Shown: in pieces, positions 5,180 to 63,057 of the stretch
Layout of the letters: every line of letters begins with the position of its first letter
Position numbering within the stretch: the first letter of the stretch is position 1
Assembly (NCBI GenBank): GCA_015490535.1
Contig: WFXP01000080.1
Coordinates: 1-64,000, forward strand
Reading direction: 5' to 3'
Length of the DNA stretch: 64,000 bases
Source: Gammaproteobacteria bacterium
GTDB lineage: Bacteria > Pseudomonadota > Gammaproteobacteria > Thiohalospirales > Thiohalospiraceae
Program-made: the position numbers and the translations under genes
The notes under the pieces: model-generated
Databases searched by the model: none
What the model saw: the letters and a program-made list of their open reading frames with translations, nothing else
What the model was told of the DNA's origin: nothing

Positions 5180-5451
5180 CGGGTCTTCCCCAAATCGTGT
5201 GGGTAAAATGGTGAATCACCGCGTAGCGGCTTCGTCCTTGACCGGCGGAATGCACGCCGGAAGATGGTCGGCAGAAGGGGATTGGGGACACTTTGGGATT
5301 GCCGGACCACTTGCCATTCGCGCAGGTAATGGATATCCGTCGGTCTCCAGCCAGACAGCCCCAATCCCCTTCTGGCTACCGAGTATGTGGCGTGTATTCC
5401 GCCGGTCAAGGATGATTCACCATTTTACCCACACGATTTGGGGAAGACCCG
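5180..5451. repeat. Family 1 foldback repeat, copy 1 (between rpsQ and rplN)
   Basis: The two ends are inverted copies of one another: CGGGTCTTCCCCAAATCGTG at 5180 is mirrored by the sequence ending at 5451. Further in, the arms around 5226-5256 and 5391-5423 also pair (GACCGGCGGAATGCACGCC against its inverse). A second nested pair is AGAAGGGGATTGGGG at about 5274 against CCCCAATCCCCTTCT at about 5359. Between lies an unpaired core of about 70 bases. Unlike other copies it lacks the outer GTACTCTTTCAAGGTAAT ends. No coding content is supported. Confidence 0.9.
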
Positions 5452-5498
5452 ATATTCCGCCCGATCCCGCGCCGCCGCGCTGATCGGGCATCTCCGGA

Positions 5499-14274: not shown

Positions 14275-15150
14275 GGTACTCTTTCAAGGTAATAAATCAG
14301 GATTCAGGCGGACGCTGAATCCTGATTGGAAGACCCAATACCGCAAACGGGTGGTGTGGCGTACATGGAGGCGGGCCGGCGGTACACGGCGGCGCTTTGC
14401 GGCTTGCTCCTGCTCCGGGCGGTATGCCTTGCTGCACGGTGTCACAGCGGGGGTTCGCCGGCCGTGTGGAGCACCCGGGCGCGAGGGGAGGCCTTTTACA
14501 AAAAGTTTTCCTTGCGGGGTAAGGCGCGCTTAAAGGTCACGGGAAAAATCCCCGAAATTTCAGTTTATAAGAGGTCGGCCGGAGCCCTTGGTCCCAGGGC
14601 CGGTTTCTCTTGCAAAAACGGTACGGAGCAACGATACTTGTCACGTACCGATTGTGGGATAAAGATTGCCTCCCGGGGATGGTTTGTTCGCCCCGGCATA
14701 TATCCAGGGGATGGGTGTGTGGCGGGCAGCATAGCGGCTGCCTCAACTATTAGGTTTCCATTGGTTACAGGCACAGAAGCGCGGGATGGGCGGCGTATCC
14801 TTGCGCGTAGAAATATAAGAATAAGAAGAAATAGTAATTTGATGCCCCGGAAGTCCTGTCCGGTTGTCGGGGATCGGATGGCTGCGACGCCGGCCCGGGG
14901 TGTTGGAGGTCGCCTGAGCAGGCTGAGAAAGTTACTGTTTGATAATAATATTGGGTTATAAATCCAAGCGAATGTTTCCGAAGAGACGCGTGTTGTGGTG
15001 TTTGGCGGCAAGGCGTAGCGCAAGAGCACTGGTTGTTCCCTTGTCAGGCGCTGCAACGCCGCTGCGGAGCATCACGGGGACGCTGAATCCTGATTTACCG
15101 TTAGCCTGGCGACATGATATGTTGCCGGGTTAATACCTTGAAAGAGTACC
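14275..15150. other. Gene-poor block bounded by inverted Family 1 ends
   Basis: The left end (GGTACTCTTTCAAGGTAATA at 14275) and the right end (TACCTTGAAAGAGTACC ending at 15150) are inverted copies of the outer ends of the Family 1 repeat. The left end includes a hairpin (14295-14327: AATCAGGATTCAG against CTGAATCCTGATT); one such arm recurs at 15083-15095. The interior contains an AT-richer stretch around 14805-14960 and no reading frame I can recognise. A 211-codon open frame (14326-14961) has no family signature and is not called. It could be a larger relative of the foldback element or unrelated DNA trapped between two solo ends. Confidence 0.6.
15095..15130 (+). promoter_or_regulatory. 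Palindromic Family 3 motif upstream of the acyl-carrier operon
   Basis: CCTGGCGACAT-GAT-ATGTTGCCGGG (15105-15129) is an imperfect inverted repeat. TATGTT (15118-15123) could be a -10 element, 17 bases after TTACCG (15095-15100). It interrupts the right Family 1 end. Closely similar sequences lie upstream of the hydrolase pair (21903-21925) and the ZnuA-type gene (41919-41952), in the same orientation relative to the gene. Confidence 0.4.
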
Positions 15151-15182
15151 AGATAATGGCGGCGAGACCGGAAGGAGTTGTT

Positions 15183-15428
15183 GTGCCAGATATTAAAGCA
15201 TCTGTAAGAGAGTACATATCAGATAATTTCCTGATGGGCCAGAGCGATGTCCAGCTGGGTGATAGCACCTCGTTTCTGGAGATTGGATTGCTGGACTCCA
15301 CCGGTGTAATCGAGCTGGTTTCGTTCCTGGAAGAGGAGTTCGGGATCCAGGTGGAGGATGATGAGATATCGCCGGAGAACCTCGACTCTCTGGACTGTAT
15401 TACCAGGTATGTAGAGAGTAAACTATAG
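15183..15428 (+). CDS. Free-standing acyl carrier protein
   Basis: 81 residues from GTG at 15183, chosen because GGAAGGAG lies five bases upstream and the length fits carrier proteins; ATG at 15156 is an alternative. The phosphopantetheine site is the Ser of LLDSTGVIELVSFLEEEFGI, with a preceding Asp as expected. Such proteins hold an acyl or aminoacyl group as a thioester. It is not the fatty-acid AcpP by sequence or context: no fab genes are near. It is followed after 20 bases by a NadE-like gene, so the carrier probably serves a dedicated pathway of this locus. Confidence 0.85.
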   Translation: MPDIKASVREYISDNFLMGQSDVQLGDSTSFLEIGLLDSTGVIELVSFLEEEFGIQVEDDEISPENLDSLDCITRYVESKL

Positions 15429-15448
15429 TTACCGGAAGGGGTGGTCAT

Positions 15449-16456
15449 ATGGACTCTGGTGCACTAGGTCCTGCGGTATTCGATATCGACTATGATCAGG
15501 AGATAGAGAGGATCTGTCACGGCTTGCTGGAGACCAGCAAGGAGTTCCGGCGGCGGGGCGCCGTCGTGGCCATCTCGGGAGGGATAGACAGCTCCGTTAC
15601 CGCCGCCCTCTGCGCCAGGGCATTTGGTACCGGGAAGGTTCTCGCGCTGCTTCTGCCAGAGCAGGACTCCTCCAGCTGCAGCTCCTCTCTGGGACAGCTG
15701 CTGGCTGATCATCTGGGACTGCAGTGTCTTACGGTGGATATATCTCCGACCCTGGAAGCGATTGGCTGCTACAGGATGCGGGATGAGGCGATCCGGACCG
15801 TATTTCCGGACTATACCCCCGAATGGAAGAGCAAGATAGTGATCTCCGGCGGGGCCAAGGGGGGATTCCACTACTTCCGCCTGGTGGTGCAGCGCCCGGA
15901 CGGAGAGCTGCTGGAGAGACGCCTGCCTCACAAGGCCTATCTGCAGATCGTGGCTGCCACCAATTTCAAGCAGCGAATAAGGAAGACCATAGAGTATTTT
16001 CATGCGGATCGGCTCAACTACTGTGTCATCGGAACCCCCAATCGGGTAGAGTACGATCAGGGCTTCTTCGTAAAGAACGGAGACGGTTCGGCAGACATAA
16101 AACCCATCGCCCATCTCTACAAGACCCAGATCTACGCCCTCGCCAGGCACATGGGGCTTCCCGAGGAGATCTGCAGCACCACTCCCACTACCGACACCTA
16201 CAGCCTGGATCAGGGCCAGGACGAGTTCTACTACTCTCTTCCCTATGCCGAGATGGACCTGGCATTGTGGGCGCACAATCACGGGATTCCAGCGGCCCAA
16301 CTGGCAGAGGCCATTGGAATCGATGTCGAGCAGGCCGGGATGGTCTATGCCGACATCGAGGCAAAGCGACGTGCCACCACCTATATGCATTCAGGTCCGC
16401 GCTTGCTGGAGACGGTGAGCGAAATTCTTACAGAAAGGCAGGAGGGATCTCCATGA
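15449..16456 (+). CDS. NadE-like ATP pyrophosphatase (NAD synthetase family) with an insertion
   Basis: 335 residues, longer than ammonia-dependent NAD synthetases (about 275), and lacking a glutaminase domain. The PP-loop SGGIDSS is at residues 43-49. The NadE-type block from residue 171 (TNFKQRIRKT, IGTPNRVEYDQGFFVKNGDG, IKPIAHLYKT) is well kept. An extra segment of about 40 residues (about 128-168) sits between the two halves. The family adenylates a carboxylate and transfers nitrogen. Here, between a carrier protein and a propeller protein with no NAD genes nearby, it may amidate another acid; that is inference. A true NAD synthetase role cannot be excluded. Its stop overlaps the next start (ATGA). 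Confidence 0.8.
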   Translation: MDSGALGPAVFDIDYDQEIERICHGLLETSKEFRRRGAVVAISGGIDSSVTAALCARAFGTGKVLALLLPEQDSSSCSSSLGQLLADHLGLQCLTVDISPTLEAIGCYRMRDEAIRTVFPDYTPEWKSKIVISGGAKGGFHYFRLVVQRPDGELLERRLPHKAYLQIVAATNFKQRIRKTIEYFHADRLNYCVIGTPNRVEYDQGFFVKNGDGSADIKPIAHLYKTQIYALARHMGLPEEICSTTPTTDTYSLDQGQDEFYYSLPYAEMDLALWAHNHGIPAAQLAEAIGIDVEQAGMVYADIEAKRRATTYMHSGPRLLETVSEILTERQEGSP

Positions 16457-17400
16457 TAGCTGCGTTAGCCAAACAGCGGGGCAAAAGCCTGCTTTGGAGC
16501 GTGGCCCCGGGAGTGATGCGCTTCAGGGGCAGCCGCCGCACCCACTGGAAATGGTCCATCGGCATGATGACTGGAGATTCCCCGCTGGGACTCCATACCC
16601 CCCGGGAGGTGATTAATCCGGTTCTGACCTGCGACGATATAACCGATCTCCATGCCGGCTTCGTTGCCGATCCCTTCATGCTGCGCAAGGACGGGGAGTG
16701 GTACATGTTCTTTGAGGTGCTGAACCTGCAGACGGAGCTGGGGGAAATAGGGCTGGCAACCAGCCAGGACGGGCTTGAGTGGGAGTATCAAGGGGTGGTT
16801 TTGAGGGGGCCGCAACACCTCTCATACCCGCATGTGTTTGGGTTTCAGGGGGAGTGGTACATGGTCCCCGAGAGCTGGAAAAGCGGGGCCGCCACCCTGT
16901 ACCGCGCCGACCCGTTCCCATGGTACTGGCGCCGGGTTACCAACCTGCTGGAGGGGTATCGGTTCGCGGATAGCAGCATATTTTCCCACCAGGGGCGGTG
17001 GTGGCTGTTCAGTGAGGCGAGCACCCCCGGCAACCACGGTGTTCTGAGGCTGTTTGGCTCGGAGCGGCCGGAGGGTCCATGGGTGGAGCATCCGGCGAGC
17101 CCTGTGGTGAATGGGGACATCTGTGCCTCGCGGCCGGCGGGCAGGGTTATCGAGATGGACGGTCGCCTCGTCCGTTTCAGCCAGAATCCGGTTCCCCGCT
17201 ACGGAACCGCGGTTAATGCCTTCGAGATTCTGGAGCTCACACCCGGGGAGTACCGGGAGCGCCCGTTGGGCGGATCCCATATATTGGGGCCTGGTGCCGA
17301 GTCCTGGAACCGGGACGGCATGCACCACCTCGATGCCCATATGCTGGATGATGGAAGCTGGCTTGCCTGCGTGGATGGATTCATCTGGACCGGAAGCTGA
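16453..17400 (+). CDS. Five-bladed beta-propeller protein, GH43/GINT1-N-like
   Basis: 315 residues; the ATG overlaps the NadE-like stop. Repeated aromatic blade patterns are visible: ADPFMLRKDGEWYMFFEV, LSYPHVFGFQGEWYMVPES, FADSSIFSHQGRWWLFSE and GDICASRPAGRVIEMDGRLV. The Asp of ADPF and the Glu of VPES sit where glycosidase-clan propellers hold active-site acids. Similar proteins are often encoded with polysaccharide or glycolipid genes (glucosamine inositolphosphorylceramide transferase-like N-terminal family). No signal peptide is evident, so a cytoplasmic sugar-handling role is likelier than secreted glycosidase. Substrate unknown. Confidence 0.7.
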   Translation: MIAALAKQRGKSLLWSVAPGVMRFRGSRRTHWKWSIGMMTGDSPLGLHTPREVINPVLTCDDITDLHAGFVADPFMLRKDGEWYMFFEVLNLQTELGEIGLATSQDGLEWEYQGVVLRGPQHLSYPHVFGFQGEWYMVPESWKSGAATLYRADPFPWYWRRVTNLLEGYRFADSSIFSHQGRWWLFSEASTPGNHGVLRLFGSERPEGPWVEHPASPVVNGDICASRPAGRVIEMDGRLVRFSQNPVPRYGTAVNAFEILELTPGEYRERPLGGSHILGPGAESWNRDGMHHLDAHMLDDGSWLACVDGFIWTGS

Positions 17401-17412
17401 GCTCTGTTCCCG

Positions 17413-18597
17413 ATGGGTTACCGGGACAGGATCAGGCAACATATCCGGCGTCTGAGAGAGGAGGATCTTCCCGCCCTGCGCGATTTCTTGCGCCGTGAGT
17501 ACCGGCCCGGGGCCATCCATGGTGACGAGCGGCATCACCGCTGGCTATTCGATGGAAATCCGGACAACAATGGGGAGGGGCCCCAGTACTGGATCTATCA
17601 GAAGGACGGCGTCATCCACGGCCAGCAGGCGGGGATCCCCTTTGCGCTGTTTGTCGATGGCCAGGCGCGGCGCGCCTCCTGGGCCATCAATCTGAAGGTG
17701 AGTCCAGCCTATCAGATGCGGGGAGTGGGGGCCGTACTCAACGATGTTTATGTTCGAAGCAACCATGTTACAGCGGCCATAAATCTGACAGATGCGGCCA
17801 GGAGCGCGTTTCTCAGATCTGGATGGAGATCTCTGGGTACGGTTCCGAAATATGTGCGCCCCCTGAGTCCGGCCGGCATACGGGCCGGGTTGCCCGACGC
17901 GCTGCAGGGTTTCGCTCCGGCGCTCTATCCGTTTCTTGTGGCTCTGGAGGGGGCGTGGCGGGGCTACGCACGCTTGCGCCGTTTCCGGTTCGAGCCGGTT
18001 GCAGCGTTTGACTCGCGTATCGACAGGATCTGGGAGGATGTGAGTGCCGTCTTCCCCGTTATGGGACGACGGGACCATGTTCGTTTGCGCTGGAGATTCG
18101 ATGAGGCGCCCGATCCGGGGCGCTACCACAGGTTCTATCTGTATCGGGGCAGCCGCCTGACCGGGTATACCGTACTGCGTTTCGGTGAGCGCAACGGGCG
18201 CAGGGTGGCGGTTGTGGTGGATCTGCTGTGTCCGCCGAGTCAGCTGCGGATACTGTTTGCGTTCTGTCTCCGGGAGGCCAGGCACGCCGGAGCGGATGAT
18301 CTGCAGACCGTTATATGTCCCTGTCCAAAGCGTACCGGATCCCTGCTGTGGCTGGGGTTCCTGCAGCGGGACTCTTCGGAGTACAGATTCATGGTGCATG
18401 AAGGGGAGGAGGATGCGGCTACCCGCAGTTTGCTGGGAGACCGCGACAACTGGTTTGTCACCATGGCGGATTGTGATCTGGAGTGGATGTTCCTGCGGGA
18501 AGAGGTCCGGCCGGAGCAGCAGACGGGCGGTCGGGAAAGCGGCGGTCAAGAGTCGTCCGGTGAGGCGGCTACCGCCCCGCCTCTTCACGCTCCCTGA
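17413..18597 (+). CDS. Large GNAT-like acyltransferase
   Basis: 394 residues. Two GNAT-like halves can be made out: residues 1-150 include INLKVSPAYQMRGVGAVLND, which resembles the acetyl-CoA loop (R/Q-x-x-G-x-G/A), and a second half around 195-330 (FRFEPVAAFDSRIDRIWED onward). Proteins of this shape occur in exopolysaccharide and aminoacyl-transfer loci. It follows the propeller gene after 12 bases and likely belongs to the same operon. A plausible role is acyl transfer, possibly from the upstream carrier protein; this is inference. The tail is rich in Gly, Glu and Ser and probably disordered. Confidence 0.6.
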   Translation: MGYRDRIRQHIRRLREEDLPALRDFLRREYRPGAIHGDERHHRWLFDGNPDNNGEGPQYWIYQKDGVIHGQQAGIPFALFVDGQARRASWAINLKVSPAYQMRGVGAVLNDVYVRSNHVTAAINLTDAARSAFLRSGWRSLGTVPKYVRPLSPAGIRAGLPDALQGFAPALYPFLVALEGAWRGYARLRRFRFEPVAAFDSRIDRIWEDVSAVFPVMGRRDHVRLRWRFDEAPDPGRYHRFYLYRGSRLTGYTVLRFGERNGRRVAVVVDLLCPPSQLRILFAFCLREARHAGADDLQTVICPCPKRTGSLLWLGFLQRDSSEYRFMVHEGEEDAATRSLLGDRDNWFVTMADCDLEWMFLREEVRPEQQTGGRESGGQESSGEAATAPPLHAP

Positions 18598-18762
18598 AGC
18601 ACAGCCGGTGCCCGGTGGAGGCGAAGGGGACCTGCCCCGAATCCGGGGCACAGTAAGGGTAAGCGGCTCTTCTTTCCCCAACCGTATGGGCAAACCAGCA
18701 GATCACCGCTCTGCCGGCTGGAGAGAGTCCTCATTGGAGAGGAGCTTTGCCCGGCGGTTGCG

Positions 18763-19431
18763 CTACCGGTACCAGCGGGTGATCTCCTCCATGGTTTGTC
18801 TGGTCTTCTCCCTCCCCTCCCGGATTCTGAAACCGAAGGTGACCATGCAGGAGATCCCGAAGCGGTCGGTATCGATACCGAAATCGCGCGCCAGAACCTC
18901 TTCCACCCTGTCGCGCTCGAATCCCTCGATGGGGCAGGAGTCTATGCCCAGCATGGCGGCGGTGGTCATCATGTTGCCGAGGGCGATATAGGTCTGCTTG
19001 CAGGCCCAGTCAAACAGGGACCGTTCGCTCTCCAGCAGCTTGAAGTCGCTCTCCTGAAACTTTCTGTAGACGGCGATCTTCTTTTCTATCGCGGCATCCG
19101 GCAGCTTCTGCACGTTGCGCATCAGCCCTTCCACATAATCGCTGTCATACCTCATGCAGAACTCCCTGCGCGCCAGGATCACCACCAGATGGCTCGCGGT
19201 GGGGATCTGCTTCTGTCCTCCCCAGCTGAATTCACGCAGCTTTTCCCGCAGCCCCCCGTCCTGAACCAGGAGAAAGTACCAGGGCTCAAATCCGAACGAG
19301 CTGGGCGATAGTCTTGCGCTCTCCATAATGGTTTCAAAATCCTCATCGGATACCTTCCTGCTGCTGTCGAACTCCTTGCAGGCATGGCGGAAGCGATATG
19401 CCTCCAGAATATCGTCGCGTGAAATGGTCAT
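18763..19431 (-). CDS. Nitroreductase-family NAD(P)H:FMN oxidoreductase
   Basis: 222 residues. The FMN-binding start RHACKEFDSSRKVSDEDF, then SARLSPSSFGFEPWYFLLVQ and the later MTTAAMLGIDSCPIEGFE match the nitroreductase family (NfsB/YdgI type). Such enzymes reduce quinones, nitro groups or enones with FMN. It is encoded convergently with the acyl-carrier operon and on the same strand as the hydrolase pair, but 643 bases separate them, so a joint transcript is uncertain. Confidence 0.88.
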   Translation of the reverse strand: MTISRDDILEAYRFRHACKEFDSSRKVSDEDFETIMESARLSPSSFGFEPWYFLLVQDGGLREKLREFSWGGQKQIPTASHLVVILARREFCMRYDSDYVEGLMRNVQKLPDAAIEKKIAVYRKFQESDFKLLESERSLFDWACKQTYIALGNMMTTAAMLGIDSCPIEGFERDRVEEVLARDFGIDTDRFGISCMVTFGFRIREGREKTRQTMEEITRWYR

Positions 19432-20074
19432 GAAACTCTCCCGTGAAATTGTCTGCTTGCCTCTGAGGTCCGCGGCTGCTTCCGCGCGCCGGGATGCGGC
19501 CGTCCATCCGCCGTAAGCCGCTGCGCCATCAGCCTTGAACGTAGCGCGGATGGGTACAGTGGCCCATCCGGGCGGTTATCCCTATGCCCCTTGCCCGGCC
19601 TCCTGGGGTGGGTAAGGGGCAGACCCTCCTTGCCAGGCGGAAGTTTGGCGGCAGGAGATTGGGACATGCTGGAGTTTCTGCATGTCGTCAGACTATCCCC
19701 TCTCTCCGCAAGGCGGTCAGAATATGGGATGGGCACCTCCTCTGTTGCTGCAGCAATCGATGGTAATGCGGCCTTTGGAACGCCCCGGCTGTTCCGGTTC
19801 GGGGCGCGGACCACGCCTTGAATGGCAATATTATACCAAGACAATCGATAGTAAAGCGCTCTTCAGGGCGGCCCGGGGGGGGCGGCTCAGGGCACGGCCC
19901 GCTGGCAGCGGCCTCCATGCCGGGGGGCGGAACGGCTGGGCTGCTCCCAGCGGGCGGGGGTTGGGCGGCCTTCATGGTGTTGCGCCGGCTGGTCACGGGA
20001 GTGCCGGGACGGCGCCACCGCGCCTCGTGACTGACCGCCCGACCAGCCGCCGCAGGGTTGGTTACCGTGGGGAT
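19432..20074. other. Intergenic stretch with no recognised gene
   Basis: Between the hydrolase stop and the nitroreductase start. Short open frames exist on both strands but none has a ribosome site with a recognisable protein signature. The right half (about 19850-20030) is very GC-rich. A promoter for the nitroreductase should lie near 19432-19500 on the minus strand but no clear match was seen. Confidence 0.5.
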
Positions 20075-21061
20075 CTATGTGGAGGAGACCGAGTGTGCGG
20101 TGTGGTACCCCGTTGCATCGGACTCTGGATTTCCGAACGAGGAGTTTAGCCAGGCACTAATCTGGGTGAGGGCTTCCGAGCGATGCTCCTGGTCATGGAG
20201 ATCGTGGGTCGCTCCCCGGATGAGCCTGATCTCGCCGCAGGGGGAGCTGTATCTGGACTGGAGCAGCAGGGAGAGAAAGGTGTCCTGGAATTTGTGCCAG
20301 CTGCTGGAGTTTTCGGAAAACAGCAACAGATGGCTCACTCCGCCGCTCCCGATACTCCGGAAGGCGGATATGAGGTGGTGGTTGATGTTTCGGTACTCCT
20401 CCAGCCTCCTGTTCTCCTTGCGGAGGCCTTGCAGGAGGAATTTGCCGGTGGTGCGTACAATGCCTTTAACGTCGCTTTCCAGAAGCAGCAGCCTGGACCA
20501 TGCCTCCCGCGAGAGCAGTTTGGTGGCATATCTTTTCATCACCATATCCACCTCCGTGGCGGTCGCCGGCATCGAGGGCGGAGATTCCGCGCTGGAGAGA
20601 AAAACCTCGGTGTTGATGGAGACTATGCCGTCAACCAGCTTCCTGTGCCTGCCGGCAAGAAGCGCAGCGGTTACGGCGCCGCCGCACAGTCCGCACAGCA
20701 CAACTCTTCTGCGGGGCCAGTTTGCCCTGAGGAGGCCGATAAAATGGGCCAGATCTTCCACGAAGCACCCGGTCTCTATTCTGTTCCACAGCTGGTGGAT
20801 GGGGCCGCTCTGGAACCGTCCCTCACTAATCCCGATCCCCCGCGGGTCGAAACGGTAGCAGCGGAAACCGTCTCCCGCCAGCTGCCTGGCGTAGTTGACG
20901 AAGATCCGGTAGGGTCCCGCCGAGTACTTCACGCCGGATGGCAGAAACACCACAACGGGCCTGGTGCCACACTCCCCCTCTGCATAGCTCTCTATGGCGC
21001 GCATGTCGAGCCCCTGCAGCTCAACAGAAATCACCCTCTCAGCGATCCGCACTGTCTCCAT
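20075..21061 (-). CDS. Alpha/beta hydrolase with Cys at the nucleophile elbow (exosortase-associated hydrolase 1-like)
   Basis: 328 residues from ATG at 21061 (AGGAG upstream, short spacing); an ATG at 21130 would overlap the next gene by 92 bases. An alpha/beta-hydrolase core is visible: PVVVFLPSG, then YRFDPRGIGISEG (oxyanion and DxRGxG segment), then VVLCGLCGGAVTAALLA. The nucleophile elbow reads G-L-C-G-G, so Cys replaces the usual Ser. A terminal histidine is available in RGATHDLHDQEH. From memory, hydrolase 1 of XrtA (exosortase A) loci has a GLC elbow and is paired with a second hydrolase as here. No exosortase is visible in this window. Confidence 0.75.
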   Translation of the reverse strand: METVRIAERVISVELQGLDMRAIESYAEGECGTRPVVVFLPSGVKYSAGPYRIFVNYARQLAGDGFRCYRFDPRGIGISEGRFQSGPIHQLWNRIETGCFVEDLAHFIGLLRANWPRRRVVLCGLCGGAVTAALLAGRHRKLVDGIVSINTEVFLSSAESPPSMPATATEVDMVMKRYATKLLSREAWSRLLLLESDVKGIVRTTGKFLLQGLRKENRRLEEYRNINHHLISAFRSIGSGGVSHLLLFSENSSSWHKFQDTFLSLLLQSRYSSPCGEIRLIRGATHDLHDQEHRSEALTQISAWLNSSFGNPESDATGYHTAHSVSST

Positions 21062-21884
21062 CGGCTCCTGAATTACGCCGTTCGAGAAACCATTTCGTTT
21101 TCCGGAACAGGTCGATACGGTACGGATCATAGTATACGTTCTCTTGGCAGAGCGGTTTGGCCATCACCTCCAGGATTCGAAACCCGAGCTCCCTGGCGTG
21201 CTCCAGCTCTCTCCTCGAGCGCAGAAAAAGGGAGGTGCTCTCCCCGCCTCCCCTTTCCGCGGCAGTAATATGGAAGCGCCGTACCGAGTCGGCAAACTCC
21301 AGATCGATATCGTACCCGGACAGGTTTATCCTGCCTCCCGATCTGAGTCTCTCCATAAGGGTTTTCCGATCCTCCACCACCTTCCCGTGGATAGACAACT
21401 GGGTCACCAGGTTGGAGCGGAGCAGATTGTTCCAGTATCTCTTCATGTCCATTACCGGCTCCACCCCGATCACGCCGGAAACACCGATGTTCGGGGCGCT
21501 TCTGAGGGCTATGTTCGCGCCGAACCGGATCCCGAGCAGGAAGAGTTTCCCTACCTGTTGCCTGTTTCGGAACCACTCTACCGCATCCGCCACATCCTCC
21601 ATCATGGTATCGGGAGTGGATGTATATATCCCCCAGCTGTTGCCGGTCCCCGTATAGTCGAACGCGAGGGCGTTGAAACGGTGTTGGGCCAGATATCTGA
21701 GCCAGCTCGCCACAAGGGGCTGGCAGGTTATCTGCTCCTCCAGCAGAGGATTGCAGAACACCACCAGGGGAGCCCCTTCCGTCACGGGGGAGAGATGGTA
21801 GAAAAGCCGCTTGTTGCGGCGGTTTGTGAAAAACCCGCAACTTTCGCCTTCCCCCTTTTCCAGCACATCTGGTGTCATCCGCAT
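21039..21884 (-). CDS. Alpha/beta hydrolase with Arg at the nucleophile elbow (exosortase-associated hydrolase 2-like)
   Basis: 281 residues. APLVVFCNPLLEEQ and FDYTGTGNSWG are typical alpha/beta-hydrolase segments; the elbow reads LLGIRFGANIAL, i.e. G-I-R-F-G with Arg in place of Ser. This resembles the GLRLG elbow I recall for hydrolase 2 of exosortase A loci, and may mean that the protein is non-hydrolytic or uses another residue. It is upstream of, and overlaps, the Cys-type hydrolase, so the two are probably co-transcribed and may act together. The C-terminus is highly charged. Confidence 0.72.
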   Translation of the reverse strand: MRMTPDVLEKGEGESCGFFTNRRNKRLFYHLSPVTEGAPLVVFCNPLLEEQITCQPLVASWLRYLAQHRFNALAFDYTGTGNSWGIYTSTPDTMMEDVADAVEWFRNRQQVGKLFLLGIRFGANIALRSAPNIGVSGVIGVEPVMDMKRYWNNLLRSNLVTQLSIHGKVVEDRKTLMERLRSGGRINLSGYDIDLEFADSVRRFHITAAERGGGESTSLFLRSRRELEHARELGFRILEVMAKPLCQENVYYDPYRIDLFRKTKWFLERRNSGADGDSADR

Positions 21885-32225: not shown

Positions 32226-32571
32226 TCAAGGTGAAAAATCAGGAAGCTCTTCCTCAAATCGTGTGGGTAAAATGGTAAATCATCCTTGACAGGCGGAATA
32301 CACGCCGGAAGATGGTCGGCAGAAGGGGATTGGGGAGACTTTGGGATAGCCGCACCGGTTGTAATTGGCGCAGCTGGTGGATATCCGCCGCTCCCCGGCC
32401 AGCCGGCCCCAATCCCCTTCTGGTTACCGAGTATGTGGCGTGCATTCCGCCTGTCAAGGACGGAACCGCTACGCGGTGATTTACCATTTTACCCACACGA
32501 TTCGAGGAAGACCCAATCAGGATTCAGCATCCTTCCAACCGAATCCTGATTTATTACCTTGAAAGAGTACT
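32226..32571. repeat. Family 1 foldback repeat, copy 2
   Basis: Left end TCAAGGTGAAAAATCAGGAA, right end TTTATTACCTTGAAAGAGTA. Arms carry AAATCGTGTGGGTAAAATGG and its inverse, the TCCTTGACAGGCGGAAT/ATTCCGCCTGTCAAGGA pair, and the nested AGAAGGGGATTGGGG/CCCCAATCCCCTTCT pair. One arm holds the extra ACCGCTACGCGGT block that the other lacks. An inner hairpin AATCAGGATTCAGC-GAATCCTGATT near the right end matches the solo end at 14275. It lies between ppiA and a plus-strand gene. Confidence 0.9.
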
Positions 32572-37368: not shown

Positions 37369-37703
37369 TAGTACTCTTTCAAGGTAATGAATTAGGAAGG
37401 TCTTCCTCTAATCGTGTGGGTGAAATGGTAAATCACCGCATAGCGGCTTCGTCCTTGACAGGCGGAATGCACGCCACATACTCGGTAGCCAGAAGGGGAT
37501 TGGGGCGGTCTGGCTGGGGACCGGCGGATATCCACTACCTGCGCAGATTGCAACTGGTGCGGCTATCCCAAAGTCTCCCCAATCCCCTTCTGCCGACCAT
37601 CTTCCGGCGTGCATTCCGCCTGTCAAGGATGATTTACCATTTCACCCACACGATTCGAGGAAGGCCTTCCTAAGTTATTACCTCGCACCTTGAAAGCGCG
37701 CTA
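37369..37703. repeat. Family 1 foldback repeat, copy 3 (core inverted)
   Basis: Outer ends GTACTCTTTCAAGGTAATGA and, at the right, TTATTACCTCGCACCTTGAAAG. The arms match the other copies, but the core from CATACTCGGTAGCCAGAAGG (about 37476) to GCCGACCATCTTCCGG (about 37612) is reverse-complemented compared with copies 2, 4 and 5. The core has therefore flipped between the inverted arms. Confidence 0.9.
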
Positions 37704-46504: not shown

Positions 46505-46828
46505 CGTACTCTTTCAAGGTAATAGATCAGGAAGGTCTTCCTCGAATCGTGTGGGTGAAATGGTAAATCATCCTTGACAGGCGGAATGCACGCCGGAAGA
46601 TGGTCGGCAGAAGGGGATTGGGGAGACTTTGGGATAGCCGCACCAGTTGCAGTTGGCACAGGTGGTGGATATCCGCCACTCCCCAGCCAGACCGCCCCAA
46701 TCCCCTCCTGGTTACCGAGTATGTGGCGTGCATTCCGCCTGTCAAGGACGGAGCCGCTATGCGGTGATTTACCATTTCACCCACACGATTCGAGGAAGAC
46801 CTTCCTGATCTACTTCGACGGAGTACTA
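46505..46828. repeat. Family 1 foldback repeat, copy 4
   Basis: Left end CGTACTCTTTCAAGGTAATA, right end CTTCCTGATCTACTTCGACGGAGTACTA (ends only partly matching). The whole arm-core-arm structure is present and oriented like copies 2 and 5. Its right end overlaps the last codons of the neighbouring permease gene and supplies its stop. About 120 bases to its left (46386-46504) hold the proS upstream region. Confidence 0.9.
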
Positions 46829-62754: not shown

Positions 62755-63057
62755 AGGTAATAAATCAGGAAGGTCTTCCTCAAATCGTGTGGGTGAAATG
62801 GTAAATCATCCTTGACAGGCAGAATGCACGCCGGAAACTGGTCGGCAGAAGGGGATTGGGGAGACTTTGGGATAGCCGCACCAGTTGCAGTTGGTGCAGG
62901 TGGTGGGTATCCGCCACTTCCCGGCCCAGACAGCCCCAATCCCCTTCTGGCTACCGATTATGTGGCGTGCATTCCGCCTGTCAAGGACGGAGCCGCTGCG
63001 CGGTGATTTACCATTTCACCCACACGATTTGAGGAAGACCTTCCTGGAAAGAGCACT
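62755..63057. repeat. Family 1 foldback repeat, copy 5
   Basis: Begins AGGTAATAAATCAGGAAGGT right after the di-heme gene's TAG and ends GGAAAGAGCACT at 63057. Left outer end lost (starts within GTACTCTTTCAAGG) and right end lacks the GATTTATTACCTT part. The arms and nested core match copies 2 and 4. Lies between two same-strand di-heme genes. Confidence 0.9.

Follow-up and report, generated by a model that had tools for sequence, protein, structure and literature searches.

The window analyzed here, 64,000 nucleotides of contig WFXP01000080.1 from a gammaproteobacterium of the family Thiohalospiraceae (assembly GCA_015490535.1), contains two adjacent alpha/beta hydrolase genes and, nearby, genes for an acyl carrier protein (ACP) and an NAD-synthase-like protein (Table 1). 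On the minus strand, hydrolase 2 is upstream, followed by hydrolase 1. Both open reading frames are present there with the nucleophile elbows reported in the preliminary description, GLCGG and GIRFG instead of GxSxG. Comparison with congeners indicates that METVR at position 21061 is probably the true start of hydrolase 1, and this start gives an overlap of about 23 bp between the two genes. Both proteins belong to the Pfam class of alpha/beta hydrolases (Hydrolase_4), and their AlphaFold2 models are alpha/beta hydrolases, with pLDDT values of 84 and 87.5. Their PDB matches include feruloyl esterases, lipases, GrgF (6lzh), and the thioesterase DcsB (7d78); GrgF and DcsB are carrier-dependent alpha/beta hydrolases.

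Table 1. The hydrolase pair and neighboring genes, with positions in the window
Feature	Position	Strand	Evidence and remarks
Acyl carrier protein (ACP)	15114-15428	plus	PP-binding domain (PF00550) above cut-off; DST phosphopantetheine-type motif; homologous ACP in five-gene operons
NAD-synthase-like PP-loop protein (PRK00876)	15449-16456	plus	NF002048, 473 bits (cut-off, 313); partner in five-gene operons
GINT1_N/family-43-like protein	16453-17400	plus	PF24793, 189 bits; possible accessory gene, weakly tied
GNAT-like protein	17413-18597	plus	Pfam GNAT matches below cut-off
Hydrolase 1	20075-21061 (ORF open to 21130)	minus	Alpha/beta hydrolase; Cys at elbow (GLCGG); conserved His
Hydrolase 2	21039-21884	minus	281 aa; alpha/beta hydrolase fold; Arg at elbow (GIRFG); no conserved catalytic His

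The best NCBIfam matches of hydrolases 1 and 2 are TIGR03100 (75.2 bits; E value, 5e-21) and TIGR03101 (74.9 bits; E value, 7e-21), and both scores are less than half of the curated cut-offs of 168.45 and 202.75 bits. The preliminary description had suggested checking the pair against these two families and had noted that the same features mark hydrolases 1 and 2 of exosortase A (XrtA) loci. It named the right families, but at 75 versus 168 and 75 versus 203 bits the pair was not filed under either of them, and the resemblance stands as a distant kinship with shared Cys and Arg elbows and shared gene adjacency. The two proteins are, as judged from these profile scores, distant relatives and not members of TIGR03100 and TIGR03101, and their nearest relatives likewise score below the cut-offs. 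Across 369 genomes of the class, 28 have a TIGR03100 match above the cut-off, and 20 more, including the genome of the window, have sub-threshold matches only.

Conservation of the elbows was determined in domains from loci collected with TIGR03100, a collection made without regard to the elbow. Cys occupies the elbow in all 53 hydrolase 1 domains of this set, and Arg does so in all 52 hydrolase 2 domains. In an enlarged set with GLCGG relatives from a pattern-based search, the counts are 96/96 for Cys and 92/94 for Arg, and the catalytic His is kept in 90 of the 96 hydrolase 1 domains; the Cys count partly reflects ascertainment, as GLCGGA was part of one search pattern. Alignment of both sets revealed no well-conserved counterpart of the catalytic His in hydrolase 2. 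The two genes are adjacent in nearly all loci. In the window's genus, the column of the usual triad Asp in hydrolase 1 contains Ser, with a conserved Glu two residues earlier; that this Glu is the triad acid is a guess. Relatives in several phyla retain the Cys and Arg, so the pair is not in decay, and neither elbow is a product of chance.

The ACP and PRK00876 genes (15114 to 16456) lie 3.6 kb from the pair on the opposite strand. This couple is found in seven of the eight genomes of the genus and is preceded by an AsnB-like gene in G004, G006, and G007. A homolog of the GINT1_N-like gene accompanies an ACP-ligase-NAD-synthase-like set in genome G310 (locus L123), and homologs of the GNAT-like gene directly follow the NAD-synthase-like gene in two congeners (G004, locus L114; G007, locus L118). 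The window's PRK00876 protein is the paralog of a full glutamine-dependent NAD synthetase encoded separately on contig C126; because of this enzyme, a housekeeping assignment was rejected for the window gene, and NAD synthesis is an unlikely role for its product. PADLOC returned no match, so there is no sign of a defense system. The GC contents of the ACP gene (48%) and hydrolase 2 gene (57%) are below those of the window (63%) and adjoining ribosomal genes, and the low GC content within 15114 to 21884 may reflect acquired DNA. Many places in the genome also contain a dispersed repeat of about 270 to 290 bp, partly self-complementary (MITE- or palindrome-like), with copies 72 to 92% identical; it is present in the window at 5181-5453, 32227-32517, 37399-37666, 46534-46801, and 62772-63040 and on contigs C10, C94, and C120. 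Single in-frame stops interrupt two genes of congeners, TAA in a ligase (G004, C20, 4253-5800) and TGA in an NAD-synthase-like gene (G003, C56, 9020-9994), each representing either an assembly error or a recent loss.

The only strong ligase detected in the genome of the window is encoded on contig C10; it scores above the TIGR03098 cut-off (749 versus 592 bits) and falls in the XrtA-type ligase clade. It is part of a polysaccharide locus (L009; C10, 154-8115), beside an EpsC-like acetyltransferase, GalE, and glycosyltransferases, one of them TIGR03087-like (264 versus 317 bits), and no exosortase is present on this 13-kb contig. An operon-type ligase was not found in the incomplete assembly, and within the genus only G007 has one (L120). 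The best TIGR03099 decarboxylase score in the genome is 89 bits, against a cut-off of 478; the pyridoxal phosphate (PLP) decarboxylase on C94 was rejected as a member at these values and fits lysA better (170 bits).

Related loci were found with an alignment-based pattern search, used after a single protein query had found nothing. They define a five-gene module that consists of an ACP, an AMP-forming ligase, a PRK00876 NAD-synthase-like PP-loop protein, hydrolase 2, and hydrolase 1. All five genes occur within about 10 kb in 12 loci from Pseudomonadota, Myxococcota, and Planctomycetota: those of G320 (L056), Comamonas sp. (L132), Pseudomonadales (L133), Alcanivoracaceae (L134), Steroidobacter gossypii (L170), Myxococcota and related bacteria (L172, L174, L175, and L176), and Planctomycetota (L178, L179, and L180). 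In a further locus, L173, the contig begins at the ligase. The statement in the preliminary description that XrtA loci also encode an ACP was borne out, with an ACP within 4 kb in 18 of 18 such loci; its counterpart in the window is the ACP of Table 1. A ligase lies within 10 kb in 13 of these 18 loci and an NAD-synthase-like gene in none. XrtA loci, like several relatives, are glycosyltransferase-rich polysaccharide loci.

Fusions tie the proteins together in relatives. Hydrolase 2 forms the C-terminal part of ligase-ACP proteins (AMP-binding plus PP-binding) in L062, L068, and L069 and of Condensation plus AMP-binding plus PP-binding proteins in L059 and L066, and hydrolases 2 and 1 are a single open reading frame in six loci (L058, L060, L061, L065, L079, and L178). 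L065 (G269) is a tandem array in which the fused frame is followed by another hydrolase 2 and hydrolase 1. A PrmC-like methyltransferase gene directly follows the operon-type ligase in G007 (L120, 4822-5724) and in Pseudomonadales (L133, 7004-7927) and is a possible sixth member of the module. In L054 (G358), L152, L153, and L168 (Thiodiazotropha-type genomes), a second exosortase, scoring below the XrtA cut-off (179 versus 208 bits in L054), is encoded about 1 kb from a GLCGG-type pair.

In the hydrolase 1 tree, the genus clade groups with L056, L132, L133, and L134, all of which are five-gene operons, with an SH-aLRT value of 99, and XrtA hydrolase 1 forms a clade of its own. A reduced, careful tree of 34 rows has the same grouping (support, 100/99.7), and the hydrolase 2 tree agrees (support, 92). 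Joining the genus to the XrtA clade in AU tests gave a borderline p of 0.053 with the careful tree and was not rejected with a quick tree of 102 rows (p = 0.56). The preliminary description had left the choice between an orphan and a related system, of which the latter is correct.

The assembly (2.13 Mb in 171 contigs; completeness, 92%) contains no exosortase match (PF09721) at an E value of ≤1 and only generic TPR matches to PrsT. Exosortases belonging to a single sequence cluster are encoded by five of the seven congeners (G002, G003, G004, G005, and G006). The G003 enzyme, the one that was typed, is XrtD (TIGR04152, 602 bits; cut-off, 400) and scores 188 bits with the XrtA model TIGR03109, below the cut-off of 208. 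G003 and G005 share the gene order exosortase, prsT, small protein, JAB gene, and moeB, and the PrsT of G005 is above its cut-off. The moeB of the window's genome is on contig C120, which aligns with G005 over 1605 nt at 70% and starts inside the JAB gene, at codon 128 of 144. Because congeners carry an exosortase and C120 breaks at the site where G003 and G005 carry it, its lack in the assembly is uninformative, and we dropped the face-value reading of it. The statement in the preliminary description that no exosortase is visible is thus correct for the assembly but is no evidence of absence from the genome.

An exosortase and a ligase are present and the pair is absent in G003 (100% complete), G005, and G006. 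Conversely, exosortase was not detected in eight genomes of the class (93 to 100% complete) with sub-threshold pairs (G062, G082, G155, G181, G200, G269, G284, and G304) or in the genomes, of unreported completeness, of six five-gene loci (L134, L172, L174, L175, L176, and L178); since the Myxococcota loci are close kin, these six represent about three independent lineages. Genomes other than that of the window therefore support, at the level of gene content, a pair that appears to be independent of an exosortase.

We favor, with moderate confidence, the reading that the two proteins are obligate alpha/beta-hydrolase-fold partners in an acyl-ACP module related to the "exosortase A system-associated" one, in which the Cys enzyme would transfer a group and the Arg protein would be its partner. 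Because a carrier protein and the enzyme that loads it often accompany the pair, the two hydrolases probably move a chemical group off the carrier, and the Cys enzyme is best read as an acyltransferase or thioesterase acting on acyl-ACP. The AMP-forming ligase would activate an acyl or aminoacyl group and load the ACP, and the C10 ligase may serve the window ACP in this way. The NAD-synthase-like PP-loop enzymes, and in relatives also AsnB-like ones, would probably amidate a carboxylate. Hydrolase 1 would accept the group from the ACP thioester, forming a Cys-acyl intermediate, and deliver it to an acceptor that is most likely a polysaccharide or lipid of the cell surface. Hydrolase 2, in which the nucleophile and His are lost, could be a catalytically dead partner or an ACP- or substrate-binding subunit. 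Several observations count against such a transfer module. The operon is split in the genome of the window into three units (pair, ACP couple, and ligase), and the one strong ligase belongs to the XrtA type. The pair is missing from G003, G005, and G006, which keep the ACP, PRK00876, and ligase genes; in G002, the pair is present and the PRK00876 gene is missing. The triad Asp is replaced by Ser in the genus, and many relatives (e.g., Nitrospira) have no ACP or ligase within 10 kb.

A serious rival is release by hydrolysis, in which hydrolase 1 would serve the ACP as an editing or off-loading thioesterase and not as a transferase, with the rest of the module unchanged. The same genetic evidence fits it, and the fold neighbors of the pair are mostly esterases, lipases, and thioesterases. 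We nevertheless consider it unlikely: Cys replaces Ser in every hydrolase 1 domain of the set collected without regard to the elbow, a pattern at least as compatible with transfer, and XrtA loci and several relatives lie in the glycosyltransferase-rich setting described above.

It is somewhat more improbable that the pair are ordinary exosortase-system hydrolases 1 and 2, of the XrtA family but drifted, or now serving XrtD, and that the exosortase was lost in an assembly gap. The best family matches, the exosortases of five congeners, the C120 break at the exosortase site, the C10 ligase above the TIGR03098 cut-off, and the large tree, which does not reject joining the pair to the XrtA clade, are all in its favor. 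Against it, the scores fall short of half of the cut-offs, the pair nests with exosortase-independent operons, the three congeners named above have an exosortase and not the pair, and the typed exosortase of the genus is XrtD, with XrtA below cut-off. It is very improbable that the two genes are serine hydrolase duplicates that are degenerate or neutral and have no specific function, as the missing nucleophile and His of hydrolase 2 and the changed acid residue of hydrolase 1 might suggest: in four congeners at 40 to 58% identity, the frames are open and the elbow residues unchanged, and Cys is paired with Arg across phyla as well as in fusions.

The pair may also be part of a broader pathway, unnamed, widespread, and independent of exosortases, that would assemble and amidate an acyl or aminoacyl group on a carrier protein and deliver it to a polymer of the cell surface through a Cys/Arg hydrolase heterodimer; the "exosortase-associated" hydrolases would then be only one branch. 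We propose this broader view only tentatively and lean against it at present. That the Cys/Arg pair accompanies an ACP and a ligase in genomes where no exosortase was detected, and that the Arg member is fused to ligase-ACP proteins, detaches these hydrolases from protein sorting and offers a testable function, namely action on an ACP-bound acyl group. Compact five-gene operons, such as those of Comamonas sp. and Steroidobacter gossypii, provide laboratory-testable cases.

The literature yielded no biochemical data for any of these proteins and no assigned role for the hydrolases named after exosortase A. Searches for the family name as annotated and for this combination of genes found nothing, which is weak evidence of novelty since most subscription journals were outside their scope. 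The 2006 PEP-CTERM/EpsH paper mentions no hydrolase, ligase, or acyl carrier (PMC1569441).

Among known systems, the PRK00876 "NAD(+) synthase" subfamily (NF002048) includes the window protein, which is above its cut-off, but the window copy is a second one, located beside an ACP, in a genome with the full glutamine-dependent enzyme elsewhere. Side-chain assembly on an ACP of the butirosin type is a further comparison, which we do not count as evidence. GrgF (PDB 6lzh), which fuses polyketide chains, matches the window pair in sequence profile and fold; it differs in being fungal and has about 16 to 17% identity in the fold alignment, and we know of no Arg partner for it. Its reaction, catalyzed by an alpha/beta hydrolase, is a Claisen-type chain fusion (PMC12304814). 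In the NRPS-like ligase-ACP and Condensation-ligase-ACP proteins with a C-terminal Arg-hydrolase (L059, L062, L066, L068, and L069), the Arg-hydrolase is likewise joined to a carrier and the Cys-hydrolase is encoded by the next gene, whereas these form a separate clade, have GLCSG elbows and a single-chain architecture, and have no NAD-synthase-like gene found within 10 kb. XrtA hydrolases 1 and 2 (TIGR03100 and TIGR03101) resemble the pair in fold, in adjacency, in Cys and Arg elbows, and in ACP and AMP-ligase neighbors. XrtA hydrolase 1 differs in its mostly GLCDA elbows, versus GLCGG in the window, and in its separate clade, and XrtA loci differ in lacking the NAD-synthase-like gene that is present near the window pair.
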